Positions 2,140 to 23,628 of a stretch of DNA of 23,628 nt are shown piece after piece. The position numbers were made by a program, and so were the translations under genes. Within the stretch, counting starts at the first letter, position 1, and each line of letters starts with the position of its first letter. The DNA lies in IMG/VR virus record IMGVR_UViG_3300028650_000016, positions 1 through 23,628 of that record. One strand, written 5' to 3'. Under the pieces are notes generated by a model. The model was not told where the DNA came from. It worked only from the letters and a program-made list of their open reading frames with translations, and did no database searches. This DNA is from a virus.

Positions 2140-2571
2140 ATGAGCGTAATTACTCTACAGGCTGACGCTACCACGCTGATCCTGAACGACCAATCGATCA
2201 CCAGCTTCGGCGAGGGCGACTATCTGACGTTGACCCCCGTCAATGCAGCGAGCGCACACGTCAACTCCGCTGGTGGCGGCGTGACCATCAGCGAGCGATT
2301 CGACAAGGATGTGCATGACCTGGTTGTTCGCGTCCAGAAGTACAGCCCAGACGATGTATTCCTTCAGGGCCTGCTTAACGGTGAAAGCGTGACCGTGCTG
2401 ATTGGCTCACTGAAAGAGTCGTACGTCGCTGACGGCTCTGCCGGTGTCGAGAGCTGGACCCTTGAGGCCGGGAGCATCACCACTCAGCCAACCCAAACCA
2501 AGAGCAATACCGACGGGAACGCGCTGATGGAATACACCGCACGCTTCCGCACTGCCAAACGGAGCCTGTAA
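2140..2571 (+). CDS. Tail tube protein (DUF3277 family)
   Basis: A 143-residue protein with the DUF3277 tube signature: an N-terminal segment (ATTLILNDQSITSFGEGDYL), then GGVTISERFDKDVHDLVVRVQKYS, then the segment SPDDVFLQGLLNGESV. These proteins polymerise into the inner tube through which DNA passes and share the beta-barrel fold of phage tube and type VI Hcp proteins. The position directly after the sheath and before the chaperones is the standard order. A Shine-Dalgarno AGGGG sits at the end of the sheath gene, and the chaperone ATG follows the stop by 3 bases. The length is normal for the family. Confidence 0.9.
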   Translation: MSVITLQADATTLILNDQSITSFGEGDYLTLTPVNAASAHVNSAGGGVTISERFDKDVHDLVVRVQKYSPDDVFLQGLLNGESVTVLIGSLKESYVADGSAGVESWTLEAGSITTQPTQTKSNTDGNALMEYTARFRTAKRSL

Positions 2572-3161: not shown

Positions 3162-4677
3162 GCTGGTCACAAAATTCAGCTTCTTGGGCGATCTATCGCC
3201 GCAGGAGACGTTTAACTCAAATCTGAAGCTATCTATTCTTGGGCTTGCTGGGCTAGGGACGGCTCTAGCTGCATCGGCTGGCGGCCTGTTTGCCTTTGTT
3301 ACAGCAGGGACCGAGGCCGCTGACCAGCTCACTGATCTAAGCGCTGAAACCGGCGTCACCGTTGAGTCGCTCCAGGAGCTTGGCTTTGCTGCTGAGCTAT
3401 CTGGCTCCAGTGCCGAGCAGATGCAATCTAGCCTGGCCGGACTGTCCAAGGTGGCGGGTGATGCCGCTCGGGATCTGGGGCGCGGCAAAAAGGCTTTTGA
3501 CGAGCTGGGGATCAGCGTCAAAGACTCGAACGGCAACGTGAAAACCGCTGACGTTCTTTTTGGTGAGCTGGGTACAAAGTTTCGCGATCTTGGAACGGAC
3601 ACGGCAAAGCAAAAGTCGATTATCGCCTCGCTTGGCCTGGACCCTTCGACGCTTCAGTTGCTCAACTCCACCAGCGAAGAGGTGGGCGCCCTTGTCGAGC
3701 AGTCACGCGCGCTTGGCATCGTCACGACCGAGCAGGCCGAGGCCGCGGCAAAGCTTCAGGATTCCCTGGCCATCGCCAAGTTCGGCGTTAGCGCACTTCG
3801 GCAACAGGTGGCAATCGGCCTGGCGCCAGCCATAACTGATATCACCGATCGATTCATTGGATTCCTTGAGGCGAACCATGAGCTGATTGAAGCCGGTCTA
3901 AAGTATTTGGGCGAGATAATCATCTCGGTCGCAGGCTTCCTTGAGCGCATGGCGCCCATCGTTCTAACCTTGGCTGCAGCTTTTGGCGTTGCGTACCTTG
4001 CAACTGGTGGGTTTGCTACGGTGATGGCGTTTGTCCTATCGCCCGTGGTGCTGATCACCGCCGCAATCGTTGCGCTACTGCTCATCGTTGACGACCTGAT
4101 CACCGCATTCCAGGGCGGTCAATCGGTCATTGCCGACTTCTTTATGGAGTTCCTCGGTGTCGATATCGTGCCAATCTTGCGCGGCGTGGTCGATGCTTTC
4201 ATGAGCATGGTTGATGCGGTGATAGCGCTGATTGGCAAGCTGTGGGATGCCTGGAAGCAATTCACTACTGGCATTGTTCAGCTGTTCTTGGGCGACTGGG
4301 ATAACGCTCTTGCCTCGCTGCTGGGGGCGTTCAATACGCTGGGTGAGGCAATCAAGTCCGTATTCGTCGGCGTCTTCGACTTCCTGTCGAACGCCATGGG
4401 GCAGGTGTTTGACGCCATCAAGTCGGCAGCCGGCTCACTTCTTCCTGACTGGGCAGTAAACCTGCTGAGCGATGACTCAGCGGCCGCACAGCTCGGGCCG
4501 AACGATGCCATGGCTATCGGTGGCGGGAACACGACCAGCACGAATAGCAGCATTGAGCAGCAGGTGCAGATCAACGTGAACAGCAATGATCCAAAGGCAG
4601 CTGGCGCGGCGGTAAATGACGCCCTGCAAGATCAGCTCAAGACCGCGAAAACTCAGGTTAACAGGGGTGGACGATGA
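3145..4677 (+). CDS. Tail tape measure protein
   Basis: A 510-residue protein, the largest of the tail cluster apart from nothing else of similar character. It begins MAVVNELVTKFSFLGDLSPQ and continues with long alpha-helical and Ala/Leu-rich stretches. Strong hydrophobic segments lie at about residues 28-55 and 250-320 (for example SPVVLITAAIVALLLIVDDL), typical of tape measures, which can insert in the host inner membrane during DNA entry. The N-terminal half contains the EAADQLTDLSAETGVTVESL region common in tape measure domains. At roughly 1.5 angstrom per residue it predicts a short tail of the order of 75 nm; this is inference. The start overlaps the frameshifted chaperone by 17 bases and the stop overlaps the next ATG as ATGA. 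Confidence 0.88.
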   Translation: MAVVNELVTKFSFLGDLSPQETFNSNLKLSILGLAGLGTALAASAGGLFAFVTAGTEAADQLTDLSAETGVTVESLQELGFAAELSGSSAEQMQSSLAGLSKVAGDAARDLGRGKKAFDELGISVKDSNGNVKTADVLFGELGTKFRDLGTDTAKQKSIIASLGLDPSTLQLLNSTSEEVGALVEQSRALGIVTTEQAEAAAKLQDSLAIAKFGVSALRQQVAIGLAPAITDITDRFIGFLEANHELIEAGLKYLGEIIISVAGFLERMAPIVLTLAAAFGVAYLATGGFATVMAFVLSPVVLITAAIVALLLIVDDLITAFQGGQSVIADFFMEFLGVDIVPILRGVVDAFMSMVDAVIALIGKLWDAWKQFTTGIVQLFLGDWDNALASLLGAFNTLGEAIKSVFVGVFDFLSNAMGQVFDAIKSAAGSLLPDWAVNLLSDDSAAAQLGPNDAMAIGGGNTTSTNSSIEQQVQINVNSNDPKAAGAAVNDALQDQLKTAKTQVNRGGR

Positions 4678-5449: not shown

Positions 5450-5791
5450 GTGGCAATTGAAATAATTAATATCACCGACGAGCCAGGTCAGCGTCACACG
5501 CTGCTTGAGGGGAATGAAGAGATCACGCTGACCCTCAACTTCTATGAGGTGACGGAGACGTGGACATTCGACGTTGCCTGGCGCGGCGTGAAAAAGAATG
5601 GGTTCATGATCAGCCTCGGGTGCCTGCATATCCAGGCGCTGAACTGGCCATTCGACTTCTTTTGCGTGACGACCGATGGTAGCGGACTGGCGCCGTTCCG
5701 CCTGGGCGACTTCAGCGAAGACAGATGCGAGCTGTATTTCGTGACCGCCGAAGAGATGATCGAGCGTCGAGGCCTTGAAGTTCCTACTTGA
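5450..5791 (+). CDS. Small baseplate plug protein (Pam3 gp18-like)
   Basis: A 113-residue, beta-rich protein (ITLTLNFYEVTETWTFDVAW, then VKKNGFMISLGCLHIQAL). The pattern of an early hydrophobic strand, a Trp-rich strand and a turn before a region ending FRLGDFSEDRCELYFVTAEE resembles the baseplate plug family typified by cyanophage Pam3 gp18. It also fits the slot after the Dit-like protein and before the hub. The start is GTG, 2 bases after the previous stop. The stop TGA (5789-5791) is part of the TTGACA of the promoter at 5788. In related phages the hub gene follows at once; here a four-gene cassette intervenes, and the structural order resumes at 7580. Confidence 0.7.
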   Translation: MAIEIINITDEPGQRHTLLEGNEEITLTLNFYEVTETWTFDVAWRGVKKNGFMISLGCLHIQALNWPFDFFCVTTDGSGLAPFRLGDFSEDRCELYFVTAEEMIERRGLEVPT

Positions 5792-5817
5792 CATAATAGT
5801 TATTTGTGGCGATTATT
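5788..5817 (+). promoter_or_regulatory. Sigma70-like promoter with operator, driving the inserted cassette
   Basis: TTGACA (5788-5793) and GATTAT (5811-5816) are separated by 17 bases. The spacer carries ATAATAGTTAT (5793-5803), an inverted repeat ATAA-N3-TTAT that is identical to the site at 15260-15270. The 19-base element spanning it, CAAATAANNNTTATGTCAA on the minus strand, recurs at 22024-22042. TGGCGATTATT (5807-5817) recurs at 21475-21485. Transcription would start near 5824, about 30 bases before the ATG at 5855. The -35 element overlaps the stop of the plug gene. No comparable promoter is visible inside the neighbouring tail genes. Confidence 0.72.
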
Positions 5818-5854
5818 CGCTGGCGCAATGAAGCGCAATGACAGGGGAGCAATC

Positions 5855-6109
5855 ATGGGTGACAATGAAGAGTGCCTGAAAGAATATCTTGAAGGCGTCG
5901 AGGCGCAGCAGTCGGCATTTTTTTCAGTAACTCTGCGCGACTACTTTGCGGCCAAGGCGATGCAGGCCGGGCTTGCATGCCTACAGGAACCATCTACGGC
6001 CGCAAGCATCTGTGAGCAAGCGCGAGGCTTAGGAATAAAGGTTGAGCAGATGTTTGCGGCCGATTCTTACAAGGTCGCCGACGCCATGCTTGCGGAGCGT
6101 GCGAAATGA
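5855..6109 (+). CDS. Small early-type phage protein, function unknown
   Basis: An 84-residue soluble protein. The central segment FSVTLRDYFAAKAMQAGLAC and the C-terminal YKVADAMLAERAK match a type of small hypothetical protein common in early regions of temperate and lytic phages of Gram-negative hosts; no function is established. The ATG at 5855 is chosen because AGGGGAG (5843-5849) precedes it with good spacing. Earlier in-frame starts from 5804 lie inside the promoter and upstream of the expected transcript start. The stop overlaps the next ATG as ATGA. It is the first gene of a cassette that has nothing structural about it although it sits between baseplate genes. Confidence 0.8.
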   Translation: MGDNEECLKEYLEGVEAQQSAFFSVTLRDYFAAKAMQAGLACLQEPSTAASICEQARGLGIKVEQMFAADSYKVADAMLAERAK

Positions 6110-17015: not shown

Positions 17016-17329
17016 TACAAGCCCTCTCGTGCGCCGTTGATCTTCTGAGGCCAGAAGTCAAAAGCAAATGCTGAAAATGCCATGTGTACGTTATTTGCGC
17101 GCTCGCGGCCTGGGCGGCGCAGCTCATCTTTCAGGTAGCACCATTGAAGCTCGCCACACCCATAGGATGACGGGTTGTCAATATGGTCCTTTTCGATGAC
17201 CGCTCCGAGCGCATCAAGAAAGTCAGCCTGCTGCTGGCAATTCATGGCCCATAATGCTTGCGCCAAAATCTCAGGCGTAACCATCACTTTGAAGCCTTCT
17301 TCAACTGTTACTTCTACTTGATTGCTCAT
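17015..17329 (-). CDS. Small conserved phage protein of unknown function
   Basis: A 104-residue protein. EGFKVMVTPEILAQALWAMN then CQQQADFLDALGAVIEKDHI and CGELQWCYLKDELRR recall a small protein type with an AxAxWxMxxxQQADFxxAL pattern found in phage early operons. No function is assigned. It is soluble, with three Cys. It overlaps its upstream neighbour by 4 bases (ATGA) and shares its last base with the exonuclease ATG, so it is probably coupled to both. Confidence 0.75.
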   Translation of the reverse strand: MSNQVEVTVEEGFKVMVTPEILAQALWAMNCQQQADFLDALGAVIEKDHIDNPSSYGCGELQWCYLKDELRRPGRERANNVHMAFSAFAFDFWPQKINGAREGL

Positions 17330-17628
17330 ACCGATACCCCGTCAGCGTTAACATCGAGAAGCGACTCAATCTTTGATTTGATTTTCTCAAGATTCGAAGT
17401 TGATATTTCCGGCGAACTCCAAGCATCAGGGGCGCTAGAAAGCCTCACGTATATGTCAGCAGTTTTCTTATAATCATCCCCATCATGCCATGGAGGGCCA
17501 TACTCCACATTCAGGCTGTTGATATGGCCGCGGAACGAGACGAAAACCGAATGACTGCCTTGGTCGTTGACTCGAATCGAGGCCGCAATGATCTCCTGGC
17601 AAAGTTCAATTTCTTTTGGTGATGCCAT
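17326..17628 (-). CDS. 100-residue protein of unknown function, first gene of the recombination operon
   Basis: MASPKEIELCQEIIAASIRV begins a soluble protein with a central GPPWHDGDDYKKTADIYVRL segment and a helical C-terminal part (STSNLEKIKSKIESLLDVNA). I do not recognise the family. GGGG precedes the ATG by 9 bases. The promoter at 17667-17696 lies 40-70 bases upstream, giving a leader of about 31 bases. It is followed without gaps by four genes leading to the terminator at 15313. Confidence 0.72.
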   Translation of the reverse strand: MASPKEIELCQEIIAASIRVNDQGSHSVFVSFRGHINSLNVEYGPPWHDGDDYKKTADIYVRLSSAPDAWSSPEISTSNLEKIKSKIESLLDVNADGVSV

Positions 17629-17666
17629 ACTGTAATGCCCCTGTCATGGATGGTTAAGATGGGCAG

Positions 17667-20157: not shown

Positions 20158-20516
20158 CAGGCCTCCCCTATTGCTTTGGCAATCACCTGATGCGCCCTGT
20201 TAAGCGCCACGGCATTTGATGGCTTTGGATTGGTGAAAAGCACAAGGCTCTCCAGTGCGGCCAGCAACTCAACCCCGCAACGATTGATCCGGTCTACACG
20301 CTTTTGCTCTGCCTTGCTTTCTGCGCGCTTCCAAATGAATTCCAGCGCTTCGGCCTCGGTATCAAAGAAACGGTAGTAGCTACTTACTTTTTGGTCTCGG
20401 CGCGGATTGTTCGCCATTCCTGAGCGATACAGATAAAAGAATTTGGTTTCGCTGTCGTACTCCCTGCGATCTGGAGTGGATGCGTAAGGGCTGACCTGCC
20501 ATTTAACGATAGTCAT
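20157..20516 (-). CDS. 119-residue protein of unknown function
   Basis: MTIVKWQVSPYASTPDRREY begins a basic soluble protein with an aromatic-rich stretch (TKFFYLYRSGMANNPRRDQK then VSSYYRFFDTEAEALEFIWK) and a helical C-terminal part (LLAALESLVLFTNPKPSNAV). No family is recognised. It overlaps the ParB-like stop by one base and the helicase start by one, so the four genes 21430-17693 form one unit. The aromatic and basic residues in the first half could bind nucleic acid; this is a guess. Confidence 0.72.
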   Translation of the reverse strand: MTIVKWQVSPYASTPDRREYDSETKFFYLYRSGMANNPRRDQKVSSYYRFFDTEAEALEFIWKRAESKAEQKRVDRINRCGVELLAALESLVLFTNPKPSNAVALNRAHQVIAKAIGEA

Positions 20517-21430
20517 TATTCGCCACTCCCGATCAGCTCAGGTTGCTTGTCGGCGTCAAGAGCCTTGCCAGATTGCTGCATTTCACGAACGGCCATGATC
20601 AGGTCGGCGAGTGCGTCGGCGCTAACTTCGACAAATCCGGTCGAGCTTGCGCCGTCAGTGATAGCATCAGCCAGATTCTTACTAAGCGAGTTGACCAACA
20701 CCACCGCATTCGAGACAACCATGTCCACCTTTGGGCGCGATGGAGCGGCAACCTTTGTCGCGACAACCTTTGCTGTCACCTTGTCCTTGCCGATCTCCTT
20801 GGCGACTTCCTGGCGGCGCTCAAGCTCCTCGGGGGCCTTGTCTCCATGATCGCGGATCATCTTCACCGCTTCGGTGGCCGAGATCTTCCCGACTTCGATT
20901 GCCTGCTGAATTTCTGGAGATCCACCGGCAAGCAAAATCATTTGATCGACGTGAGCAACAGACATGCCAGCCTCGGCGGCGATCTCTTTGCGGCTGGCAC
21001 CAAGCTCATCGCGAGCATGCATATACAGGCGGCCAAGCTCGACAGGCTTTAGCTTGAGCTGCTTGTTGCTGCTGGCGATGCGCATTTTGCGCTGGAATGG
21101 AGTGCCGTTGAACTGGATCGCCGAGATGTAACCATCCCAGGCCTTGTCGATCTCTGTGTACTGCCTGTACGCAAAATAGCGGCAGTGACCCTCCACCATC
21201 TCGATGGCGCCAGTTTCAGGGTTTACCCATACCTCGACAGGTGGGATTGGCTGCTTTGCAACCATGGCGGATAGGAGGCTTGCGATATGCTCGCGTAACT
21301 CGTCGTCGTCATCGCGAACGTTGAAGCCGTCAACGATAACGATGGCGTCGTGCTTTACGCGGATTGCATCGCCGCGCTTGGCGGTATCGTTCAATTTGTC
21401 GGATGCGATGTTGTTCAGTGTGAATGCCAC
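20516..21430 (-). CDS. ParB/RepB/Spo0J-like DNA-binding protein
   Basis: A 304-residue protein with ParB organisation. The N-terminal domain contains IEMVEGHCRYFAYRQYTEID, the box II (GxxR) region. A helix-turn-helix part follows at about 143-165 (GASRKEIAAEAGMSVAHVDQ), then a linker and C-terminal helical region (ALADLIMAVREMQQSGK). The start is GTG, supported by AGGGAG six bases upstream. ParB-type proteins bind specific DNA; modern work shows the domain is a CTP switch. No ParA partner lies nearby, so it may act in replication or gene control rather than partition. It is the first gene of a four-gene operon. Confidence 0.85.
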   Translation of the reverse strand: MAFTLNNIASDKLNDTAKRGDAIRVKHDAIVIVDGFNVRDDDDELREHIASLLSAMVAKQPIPPVEVWVNPETGAIEMVEGHCRYFAYRQYTEIDKAWDGYISAIQFNGTPFQRKMRIASSNKQLKLKPVELGRLYMHARDELGASRKEIAAEAGMSVAHVDQMILLAGGSPEIQQAIEVGKISATEAVKMIRDHGDKAPEELERRQEVAKEIGKDKVTAKVVATKVAAPSRPKVDMVVSNAVVLVNSLSKNLADAITDGASSTGFVEVSADALADLIMAVREMQQSGKALDADKQPELIGSGE

Positions 21431-21451
21431 GATAGGCTCCCTGTCATTTGA

Positions 21452-22055: not shown

Positions 22056-22514
22056 ATGAAAAAGAGTATTTCGGGAAAGACCGCAGCCCGACTATCTGAG
22101 ACGCCAGAGGGTTCGGCGCTTCTGGCGCTGATCAATGAGAGCGGATCCCCATCTGCACTGGCGATCAAACTGAAAGAGGAGCCGCAGGCCGTGCGCCAGT
22201 GGGTTTATGCTGGAGCAATCCCGAAGGGGGCTGCGATTGCCGCCGCCAAAACCCTCAAGATCAAGCCGTCTGCCCTGCGCCCAGATCTGCCGAAAAGCGC
22301 ATGGGAAGTGAAAGTCGAGCAAGCAAAGCCAGCTCGTCAGCCGGTAGCGCGTACTGAAGACGCCAAGCTCTTGGTTGTCCTGGCCGAGAAATACGGAACC
22401 GTGAAAGAGCTTTGCGCCAGGGCGCATTGTACCGTGACTGAGTATCACACCTGGAAAACTCGCGGGCGCATTCCGGCTATCAAGCTTCCGACGTTCCTGG
22501 GGCTCAATCAATGA
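22056..22514 (+). CDS. Tandem HTH (YdaS/Cro-like) regulator
   Basis: A 152-residue protein. The first domain, about residues 16-80 (LLALINESGSPSALAIKLKE, then PQAVRQWVYAGAIPKGAAIA), is YdaS/Cro-like. After a basic linker (VEQAKPARQPVART), a second segment at about 100-150 (LLVVLAEKYGTVKELCARAH, then CTVTEYHTWKTRGRIPAIKL) has the same helix spacing with W in the recognition region. Two HTH units in one chain would form a covalent pseudo-dimer able to bind an inverted repeat. ATG 22056 is chosen because the promoter start is about 22038 and an earlier ATG at 21927 lies on the far side of the operator. The stop overlaps the next gene by 4 bases. Confidence 0.78.
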   Translation: MKKSISGKTAARLSETPEGSALLALINESGSPSALAIKLKEEPQAVRQWVYAGAIPKGAAIAAAKTLKIKPSALRPDLPKSAWEVKVEQAKPARQPVARTEDAKLLVVLAEKYGTVKELCARAHCTVTEYHTWKTRGRIPAIKLPTFLGLNQ

Positions 22515-23371
22515 GCGGCGACCGAATCCCCGAAAGGCTGCTCGACGACGCCAGAGCAAGAATCGTCGAGGTGATCAGCGGCTACGTCCACGACCTTAAA
22601 AAAGCCGGTAAAGACTGGTCGGCCTGCTGCCCATTCCACAACGAGAAGTCTCCAAGCTTTAGCGTCAGCGAATCCAAAGAGTTTTTCTACTGCTACGGCT
22701 GTGGCGCGAGTGGTGATGCCATCAAGTTTGTCCAGGAGATGAACCCTGGTATCACCTTCCGCGATGCTGTGCGATCAATCCTTGGCGAGATCAGCCTAGA
22801 ATCATCCTCTGCGCCGCGCAGATCAACTATCAAGGCGGTCACTTGCAATCTGCCAGGGCACGCCGAGGACCGTGAAAAGGCCTCGTCAGCAATGGCGGCA
22901 ACCCACCTAATCGAGCAGCATAAATACCTGATGCAAAACAACACCGCCTCAATCACGCCTTGCGCCGTGGATAGAAAGGGTATTCTTATGGTGCCGATGA
23001 TCAACAATATAGGCGAGACAACTAATGTCGCTGCCATCATGGCAAGCGGGTCAGTGCATTACGCAGCCGGAAAACCATCGTTCGGATCGACAGCAATCCT
23101 GATGCCAGAGGGTGAACATGATGGCAAAACAATCATCTGTGTCGACTATGCGCACGCCTGGCGTATCTGGTGGGCTCAGCGTGGAAAGTCTCGCGTTCTG
23201 GCATGCATGAGCCCTGACAACTTCAGGTGGATGCTTCTGAACTGCAAGGAAAGATTTACGCATATCGGGTGTGATCCAGCCGAAGCTGATGAGCACGTCG
23301 ATTATGGCCGCGCAGTAGTGGCCGTTCCGCTTGATCCTTACGCAAAGATTGACAGGGAAAAGGTCGCTTGA
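22511..23371 (+). CDS. CHC2 zinc-finger primase-like protein with degenerate C-terminal half
   Basis: A 286-residue protein. Residues 33-70 show the primase zinc finger: C40-x2-H43 and C61-x2-C64 in CCPFHNEKSPSFSVS and FFYCYGCGASGDA. This CHC2 finger recognises template DNA in DnaG-type primases. The second half (GILMVPMINNIGETTNVAAI, then DGKTIICVDYAHAWRIWWAQ and THIGCDPAEADEH) resembles the TOPRIM-like region of phage primases. However, the usual EGYATA becomes VDYAHA and the DDD patch becomes CDP, so key acidic residues seem missing. It lacks a helicase domain. ATGA overlap ties it to the HTH gene, and a strong terminator follows 46 bases after the stop. Confidence 0.82.
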   Translation: MSGDRIPERLLDDARARIVEVISGYVHDLKKAGKDWSACCPFHNEKSPSFSVSESKEFFYCYGCGASGDAIKFVQEMNPGITFRDAVRSILGEISLESSSAPRRSTIKAVTCNLPGHAEDREKASSAMAATHLIEQHKYLMQNNTASITPCAVDRKGILMVPMINNIGETTNVAAIMASGSVHYAAGKPSFGSTAILMPEGEHDGKTIICVDYAHAWRIWWAQRGKSRVLACMSPDNFRWMLLNCKERFTHIGCDPAEADEHVDYGRAVVAVPLDPYAKIDREKVA

Positions 23372-23416
23372 TAGCCTGAAGATCCTCGGCTGACCCCTGT
23401 CACGCGCCCGCCAGGC

Positions 23417-23440
23417 AACCCCTCTTCGGAGGGGTTTTTT
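23417..23440 (+). terminator. Strong intrinsic terminator after the primase-like gene
   Basis: AACCCCTC (23417-23424) and GAGGGGTT (23429-23436) pair around a UUCG tetraloop closed by C-G, followed by T6 (23435-23440). It ends the two-gene operon that starts at 22056. Confidence 0.95.
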
Positions 23441-23464: not shown

Positions 23465-23487
23465 AAAAAAGCCCGCGCTTGGCGGGC
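23465..23487 (-). terminator. Intrinsic terminator (minus strand)
   Basis: On the minus strand GCCCGC (23487-23482), loop CAAGC and GCGGGC (23476-23471) are followed by TTTTTT (23470-23465). It is the counterpart of the plus-strand terminator at 23417, so the two convergent units are separated. The stem sequence equals that at 15319-15336. Confidence 0.92.
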
Positions 23488-23542
23488 TTCTGACTTCTGT
23501 GCTACAGAACTTCCCCACTGCTGATATTCGTCTTGGTAAACG
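23465..23542 (-). ncRNA. Possible small RNA of about 78 nucleotides
   Basis: On the minus strand a promoter-like pair (TTGACA 23577-23572, AATACT 23554-23549, 17 bases apart) predicts a start near 23542. The segment contains a TTCTGT/ACAGAA hairpin (23509-23504 with 23500-23495) and ends at an intrinsic terminator (23487-23465). No reading frame with a credible start and ribosome site lies between them. The alternative is a long 3' untranslated region of the gene that ends at 23584. Confidence 0.4.
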
Positions 23543-23548
23543 GTGATC

Positions 23549-23577
23549 AGTATTCAGCGCCAGATGATTGATGTCAA
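23549..23577 (-). promoter_or_regulatory. Candidate promoter of the possible small RNA
   Basis: TTGACA (23577-23572) matches the consensus perfectly and AATACT (23554-23549) in four of six bases, with a 17-base spacer. It lacks the ATAA-N3-TTAT repeat of the other promoters here. The -35 lies 7 bases downstream of the TAG of the partial gene at 23584. Confidence 0.45.
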
Positions 23578-23583
23578 TAGATG

Positions 23584-23628
23584 CTACGGGAATGGGTCGG
23601 TATCTGGAGTGCAGTCTGGGCAGTCAAA
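23584..23628 (-). CDS. C-terminal end of a minus-strand gene (partial)
   Basis: The last 14 codons before a TAG (23586-23584), reading FDCPDCTPDTDPFP. The CPDC pair could belong to a zinc ribbon or thiol protein. Only this tail is in the window, so no function can be given. The following terminator at 23487-23465 agrees with a gene ending here, about 100 bases before it. Confidence 0.4.
   Translation of the reverse strand, partial: FDCPDCTPDTDPFP

Follow-up and report, generated by a model that had tools for sequence, protein, structure and literature searches.

A putative antisense RNA element in the primase 3'UTR of a phage family, predicted to pair with the ribosome sites of several phage genes

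Introduction

At the right end of the viral DNA studied here a plus-strand primase-like gene meets a minus-strand unit that runs in from the edge, and the question is whether this convergent junction encodes a regulatory RNA, on which strand, and with which messages it might pair. The stretch, called the window below, is the entire 23,628-nt virus record IMGVR_UViG_3300028650_000016 of IMG/VR. It is probably a fragment, because the others among the 13 records first searched for the 9-mer described below measure 41-47 kb. A sequence-only reading of the junction had drawn an independent small RNA of about 78 nt on the minus strand and had compared it with the C4 RNA of phages P1 and P7. The features concerned are the following.

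22511..23371, plus strand: primase-like gene with a CHC2 zinc finger, whose mRNA bears the element (PF01807, E 1.3e-30, Pfam; DNA primase, PHROGs)
23372..23440, plus strand: putative antisense RNA element in the primase 3'UTR, seed hairpin and UUCG-loop terminator (covariance model, window hit 23370-23440)
23394..23402, plus strand: seed CCCCTGTCA (CYCCTGTCA in the family), conserved in 18 of 20 3'UTRs and in 5 further records
23417..23440, plus strand: intrinsic terminator closing the primase transcript (helix 3, 98.8% of alignment cells paired)
23465..23488, minus strand: converging terminator at the end of the minus-strand unit (AGCCCGC 23488-23482, loop CAAGC, GCGGGCT 23476-23470, then five T, 23469-23465)
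23549..23577, minus strand: promoter-like site TTGACA-17-AATACT, 10 of 12 consensus positions, putative function
23584..23628, minus strand: stop and 14 C-terminal codons of a gene that the contig edge truncates (from translation; presumed coding)

The minus strand of the junction

The elements from which the small RNA had been built are all present, and all lie on the minus strand between 23577 and 23465: the promoter-like site (TTGACA at 23577-23572, a 17-nt spacer and AATACT at 23554-23549, agreeing with the consensus at 10 of 12 positions), a six-pair hairpin TTCTGT-AGC-ACAGAA at 23509-23495, and a strong terminator at 23488-23465 with the stem AGCCCGC/GCGGGCT. The frame that enters at the window edge reads FDCPDCTPDTDPFP-stop, with its stop codon at 23586-23584, and leaves a gap of 6 nt before the TTGACA; from its 14 codons we infer that it is coding. 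Because this frame ends at 23584, the simplest view of the minus-strand segment is that it forms the 3'UTR of the convergent unit, terminator included. Of the 19 further loci inspected by eye, L002-L020, all but L005 and L020 (17) likewise have a converging minus-strand terminator here.

An independent minus-strand RNA of about 78 nt, running from TTGACA-17-AATACT to the terminator at 23465, has its strong terminator and promoter-like site in its favour, together with the enrichment of such sites in the window, where nine match at least 10 of 12 positions against a mean of 1.65 and a largest count of 4 in 20 dinucleotide shuffles; as they are enriched as a set, this particular site is not judgeable singly. 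The fold of the 78-nt transcript has z = -2.39 against shuffles. Once the terminator is removed (23542-23491), the energy of -7.5 kcal/mol hardly differs from the -7.45 averaged by shuffles (z = -0.02), and therefore the remaining part, six-pair hairpin included, folds at chance level. The segment 23481-23628 gave no convincing DNA match among the loci then collected (best E 2.2), and an exact 32-mer from the hairpin-terminator part had 0 matches in viral_contigs. Complementarity to ribosome sites, which had been suggested as a check, did not appear on this strand: the minus transcript has no complement of 8 nt or more to any of the 34 translation starts of the window that we chose from the ORF list. 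On conservation, on structure beyond the terminator and on ribosome-site targets alike, the independent RNA thus found no backing, and it lies within the 3'UTR of the minus-strand frame, directly after its stop. We regard it as very unlikely; a transcript from the promoter-like site is possible but unsupported. The site was also considered as a promoter of the phage operator type and was rejected, with 5 mismatches to the operator-like motif described below.

A conserved element between the primase stop codon and its terminator

About 24 bases from this segment, on the opposite strand, the primase transcript ends in an element of its own. Relatives were collected by means of the primase gene (22511-23371), and the 3'UTRs of 20 loci were inspected, namely the window and L002-L020. 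In 18 of the 20, CYCCTGTCA stands between the primase stop and the terminator in otherwise variable surroundings, and CCTGTCA is invariant across these 18 when aligned. The seed was defined by this conservation alone, when no target had yet been found. The primase relatives L019 and L020 have no seed and were left out of the family of 23 records, which comprises 13 whole records and 10 further seed-bearing ones, five of them from the first set and five new from a search for the motif-terminator pattern beside a primase. This pattern occurred in 80 loci; the 18 with a primase match were 12 already in the set, the five new ones and L279, which has a weak, distant primase match only, and the 62 loci without a primase match were left out as unrelated.

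The seed starts 19-22 nt past the primase stop in 21 of the 23 records, 35 nt past it in G035 and 52 nt in G011. No sigma-70-like promoter was found from 160 nt before the primase stop to the seed in any of the 23. The element, lying between a stop codon and an intrinsic terminator with no promoter of its own, has the layout of a 3'UTR-derived small RNA. The motif was also considered as a minus-strand -35 box and rejected, since its first T is not kept in G000, G033 and G035 and bases outside the hexamer are kept.

A covariance model built from six members matched the 3' end of the primase gene in all 23 family records, with no other match in the 23 family sources at E up to 1e-4. At an E limit of 1, a set of 47 sources gave six more matches, all of them weaker: L206 (2e-4), L019 (0.001), a second site in L233 (0.013) and three above 0.2. 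On an alignment fitted to the structure of the model (21 distinct rows), 10 of 17 pairs were changed on both sides, compared with 4.6 in shuffles (0 of 500 reached the observed number) and 0-1 in slid controls. Four of these pairs belong to the outer helix of the hairpin, five to the terminator and one to a short inner helix, in which pairing is poorly conserved (73% of cells). From an unfitted MAFFT alignment RNAalifold recovered nothing but the terminator, and the upstream hairpin is seen in individual folds and in the model-fitted alignment only. In free folding the seed is unpaired at a mean of 0.67 in the family and at 0.46 in the window copy, so that its presentation in a loop is fair in the family and weak in the window, where, without its terminator, the element folds about as stably as shuffles do (z 0.09).

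Rfam holds a family model of the C4 antisense RNA. No Rfam family reached its gathering score in the window, C4 included. Below threshold, the best for 23379-23439 was isrB (21.9 bits, with 35 needed), and Leu_leader, Trp_leader and Hrs1 likewise appeared for the element below threshold only. The L206 record, which has no primase match, contains at 2331-2385 (plus strand) a similar hairpin with CTCCTGTCAA in its loop and a terminator (model E 2e-4); it has one other site of the 9-mer, not at a start codon, and no tagged start in the sense used below.

The complement of the seed at ribosome sites

The complement of the seed, TGACAGGRG, occurs at 62 places in the 13 whole records and is present in all 13; the reversed pattern occurs 0 times there and 0 times in the 10 further records. 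In the 23 related records together (876 kb) there are 106 sites, consisting of 23 primase copies, one per record, and 83 others. In G003 the search pattern missed the terminator loop, and the primase copy was therefore identified manually. All 83 other sites lie 6-9 nt before a start codon (77 ATG, 4 GTG and 2 TTG), and the frame behind each start runs on without a stop for 54 codons or more, or as far as the extracted stretch reaches. The seed is accordingly complementary to the Shine-Dalgarno region of a gene at every site outside the primase 3'UTR. We refer to such a site as a tag.

Each related record has 1-6 exact targets. Against chance expectation, Amjad_SA, the nearest isolated relative, has 4 sites where 0.68 would be expected, and the window 3 where 0.20 would be expected. 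Twenty records with distant primases (862 kb), drawn from the 64 loci that rank after the nearest 16 and perhaps including near-copies such as L021-L023, contained 2 sites, both in G028 and neither at a start codon. Complementarity does not extend beyond 9-10 nt, since most targets fail to match the base that follows the seed core. When the primase 3'UTR (23372-23440) was compared with the same 34 translation starts of the window, it gave two 9-nt and two 8-nt complements, a result reached by 4 of 500 mononucleotide shuffles. The suggested check on ribosome sites thus points to the plus strand, and what is supported at the junction is a regulatory antisense RNA in the primase 3'UTR, not the one that had been drawn. 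The predicted targets of the window and their genes are these.

5839..5847, plus strand: target 1, Shine-Dalgarno site TGACAGGGG, exact over 9 nt, ATG at 5855, with an operator-like site at 5788-5803
5855..6109, plus strand: target gene 1, 84 aa, phrog_2201, without functional annotation (PHROGs)
17638..17646, minus strand: target 2, Shine-Dalgarno site TGACAGGGG, exact over 9 nt, ATG at 17628
17326..17628, minus strand: target gene 2, 100 aa, no PHROG or Pfam match
21439..21446, minus strand: target 3, imperfect, TGACAGGG(AG), 8 nt complementary, GTG at 21430
20516..21430, minus strand: target gene 3, ParB-like protein (phrog_1033, E 4.3e-44; PF17762)

The ParB-like gene, recognized by N-terminal likeness, has an exact TGACAGGAG in ten relatives (G003-G009, G035, G039 and G040); before its start at 21430 in the window the site is TGACAGGGAG, still complementary over 8 nt. 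The tagged genes are diverse, with 67 distinct 8-residue beginnings among the 83. Their families were looked up for the members in the window and in Amjad_SA, where they include the ParB-like phrog_1033, an AAA ATPase (PF13479) and Nmad5 (PF18757). An exonuclease VIII gene (phrog_412, identified on its untagged homologue in the window) is tagged in G005 and G041, judging by N-terminal likeness.

When starts were ranked by duplex energy, untagged starts took the first and fourth places in Amjad_SA; in the window an untagged start was second and the start at 21430 eighth of 34. Also in the window, the untagged start at 4674 (plus strand), in the structural region, carries ACAGGGGT, which complements the primase 3'UTR over 8 nt, perhaps by chance. 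In Amjad_SA (L204) the starts at 41416 (minus), 2180 (minus) and 7080 (plus), the ParB-like gene included, have the near-matches CGACAGGAGC or CGACAGGGGC at their ribosome sites, which suggests that they are additional targets in which the first pair is missing.

The primase copy was also considered as the ribosome site of an antisense gene and rejected: in 0 of the 23 records does it have a start at 6-9 nt followed by an ORF of at least 40 aa. An antisense GTG at 6-9 nt opens 9 codons in G010, 4 in G011 and 2 in G036, and an antisense TTG at 11 nt opens 68 codons in G001, 14 in G002 and 68 in G037.

Joint change of seed and targets

In three records (the window, G010 and G036) the seed reads CCCC where the others have CTCC. 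Of the 8 exact targets in these C-seed records, 7 are TGACAGGGG; the 20 T-seed records have 75, of which 66 are TGACAGGAG and 9 are TGACAGGGG, the latter still able to pair by G-U. The seed and its targets therefore change together (7/8 versus 9/75; Fisher p = 2e-5, in a test that ignores kinship). On the primase tree the C seed needs two changes and may even have had a single origin, so that the comparison is not free of kinship. The same difference is found among genes with similar N-termini. Those starting MASPKEI or MASTKEI show GGGG in the window and in G010, and those starting MASPKEI or MASPREI show GGAG in G007, G032 and G038; similarly, genes starting MKLVDILA show GGAG in G006 and G007 and GGGG in G036. 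An exception is the gene starting MTRLTK in G010, which retains GGAG.

A proposed mechanism

The hairpin loop at the end of the primase mRNA complements several ribosome sites of the same phage, and the same holds in the relatives; the element is thus probably an RNA switch that turns off a group of the phage's genes. We consider it likely that an antisense RNA from the primase mRNA blocks the translation of several phage genes. Four features of the DNA itself speak for this reading: the conserved seed, the locking of its complements to start codons, the joint change of seed and targets, and the hairpin on the fitted alignment. According to this proposal the primase mRNA would end in a 3'UTR of about 70 nt made up of the hairpin and the terminator, with the 9-nt seed CYCCUGUCA offered in or near the loop. 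As no promoter of its own was seen, the RNA would be released by processing of the primase mRNA. The seed would then pair with the UGACAGGRG Shine-Dalgarno regions of other genes of the phage, in the window two over 9 nt and one over 8 nt. Such pairing would cover the Shine-Dalgarno site and, presumably repressing rather than activating, would stop the translation of all tagged genes together, presumably once primase mRNA has been made.

A broader version, which we put forward tentatively and rate somewhat below an even chance, is that the tag serves as a password. A gene might join the regulon by carrying a TGACAGGRG ribosome site, whichever strand it lies on and however lately it was gained, and the one RNA from the primase mRNA end would silence all tagged genes at the start of replication. 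Seed and tags would drift jointly (T to C and A to G, by way of G-U pairs), so that each lineage would keep its own password, which might even act between co-infecting phages. If the antisense reading is true, a single RNA together with a short tag would control a changing set of accessory and recombination genes, and the arrival of newly gained genes under common control would be explained without new promoters. Exact predictions, as to which genes and which bases, follow from the model of seed and tag, and a 3'UTR seed mirrored in several ribosome sites could be a signature of similar RNAs in other phages.

Operator-like sites and alternative explanations

Many tagged genes also lie behind a second motif. 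The operator-like motif GAYATARTNATTAT was found within 60 nt upstream of 54 of the 83 tagged genes (0-2 mismatches), compared with 0.9 expected from mononucleotide shuffles, an excess that is partly built in because the motif was drawn from these same leaders. It is possibly the site of a phage transcription regulator. In the window such sites lie at 5788-5803 (plus), 22042-22027 (minus) and about 21466 (minus), and in Amjad_SA at 35792-35779 (minus) and elsewhere; the motif is also present where the HTH-primase operon and the minus-strand early genes diverge. Amjad_SA has 9 matches with up to 2 mismatches versus 0.28 expected, two pairs of which are one place read on both strands.

This association raises the alternative that TGACAGGRG is itself a DNA operator of a phage regulator, the copies ahead of genes repressing transcription and the primase copy being one more binding site. 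The primase operon does open with an HTH gene, repressor-like by phrog_35, and a joint change of all copies would also fit a shift in the specificity of a protein; the 54 of 83 tagged genes behind an operator-like motif fit as well. Against this, the 9-mer is not palindromic, 29 of the 83 tags have no operator-like motif within 60 nt, and the primase copy lies inside a hairpin that covaries on the fitted alignment. Moreover, the tag keeps 6-9 nt to the start codon while its distance from the operator-like motif varies from 4 to 43 nt, which points to translation rather than transcription as the level of action. We therefore hold an operator to be unlikely. The tag could instead be a by-product, if a leader cassette with TGACAGGAG had been copied through these genomes and the primase 3'UTR copy were an inverted relic without function, and indeed several leaders are near-identical across records ahead of different genes. 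This seems most unlikely, as the leaders are by eye of several unlike types with the 9-mer alone in common, CCTGTCA is invariant in the 18 aligned 3'UTRs amid varying surroundings, the primase copy is present in all 23 records, and seed and targets change together.

The complementarity would be the same if control ran in the reverse direction, with target mRNAs binding the primase 3'UTR and governing the decay of the primase mRNA, or with pairing that protects the targets; that 23 of 23 records have no promoter-like site for the RNA agrees with this too. The locking of 83 of 83 sites to Shine-Dalgarno positions is however what control of target translation would lead one to expect, and we think the reverse direction improbable. 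Our preferred reading remains the antisense RNA from the primase mRNA.

Relation to known RNAs and to isolated phages

C4 of P1/P7 and sar of P22 are phage RNAs that pair around the translation start of a phage mRNA and block its translation, and the complementary parts of C4 are said to lie in loops (PMC12197685, in the part dealing with these RNAs). The primase 3'UTR element is predicted, from its sequence, to pair with phage ribosome sites in the same manner. The comparison with C4 is thus upheld as a way of working, a loop pairing with a ribosome site, and not as a sign of descent from C4 or of a role in lysogeny. In the same part of that source C4 and sar have one target, ant; the present element has 1-6 exact targets in each record, located on both strands, and is itself the 3'UTR of a primase mRNA. 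The element follows the primase gene, and its targets in the window are the ParB-like gene and two genes without functional annotation, whereas C4 pairs with ant.

Other phage-encoded base-pairing RNAs differ in their targets. VpdS of phage VP882 and PreS of lambda are described in portions of the same article as trans-acting and Hfq-dependent, PreS acting on host dnaN and VpdS on host and phage mRNAs (PMC12197685); the evidence here is instead a conserved set of phage ribosome sites. For sRNA1 and sRNA2 of the virulent Pseudomonas phage PAK_P3, abundant short RNAs for which base pairing was proposed, the relevant section of PMC4933390 gives one 11-nt phage match per RNA and no such set of ribosome sites. 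In icaR of Staphylococcus aureus the 3'UTR reportedly pairs with the 5'UTR and controls translation of the same gene (PMC3868564), unlike the present case, where the targets are other phage genes. Among the matches listed from a largely open-access literature, we found no earlier report of the primase 3'UTR RNA or of the tag.

Among named phages, Amjad_SA is the only one of 291 records with a primase match that covers at least 80% of the query. It is called lytic in the title of its paper, and the words promoter, terminator and small RNA are absent from its main text (PMC12968170). In bacterial genomes, among the 80 loci listed, only the N-terminal part of the primase was matched, at 32-56% identity, and therefore no close prophage was seen among those 80.

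Genes at the junction in the relatives

In L002-L018 the junction 3' of the primase gene carries varied minus-strand ORFs that, by eye, end in most loci at the converging terminator, next to the conserved terminator of the primase, and it is apparently a cargo spot. The TTGACA-17-AATACT of the window resembles the sequence 5' of a tagged gene in Amjad_SA (TTGACA, 17 nt, AATACT). With no long ORF between it and the terminator, the site in the window may be the relic of a lost cargo gene.
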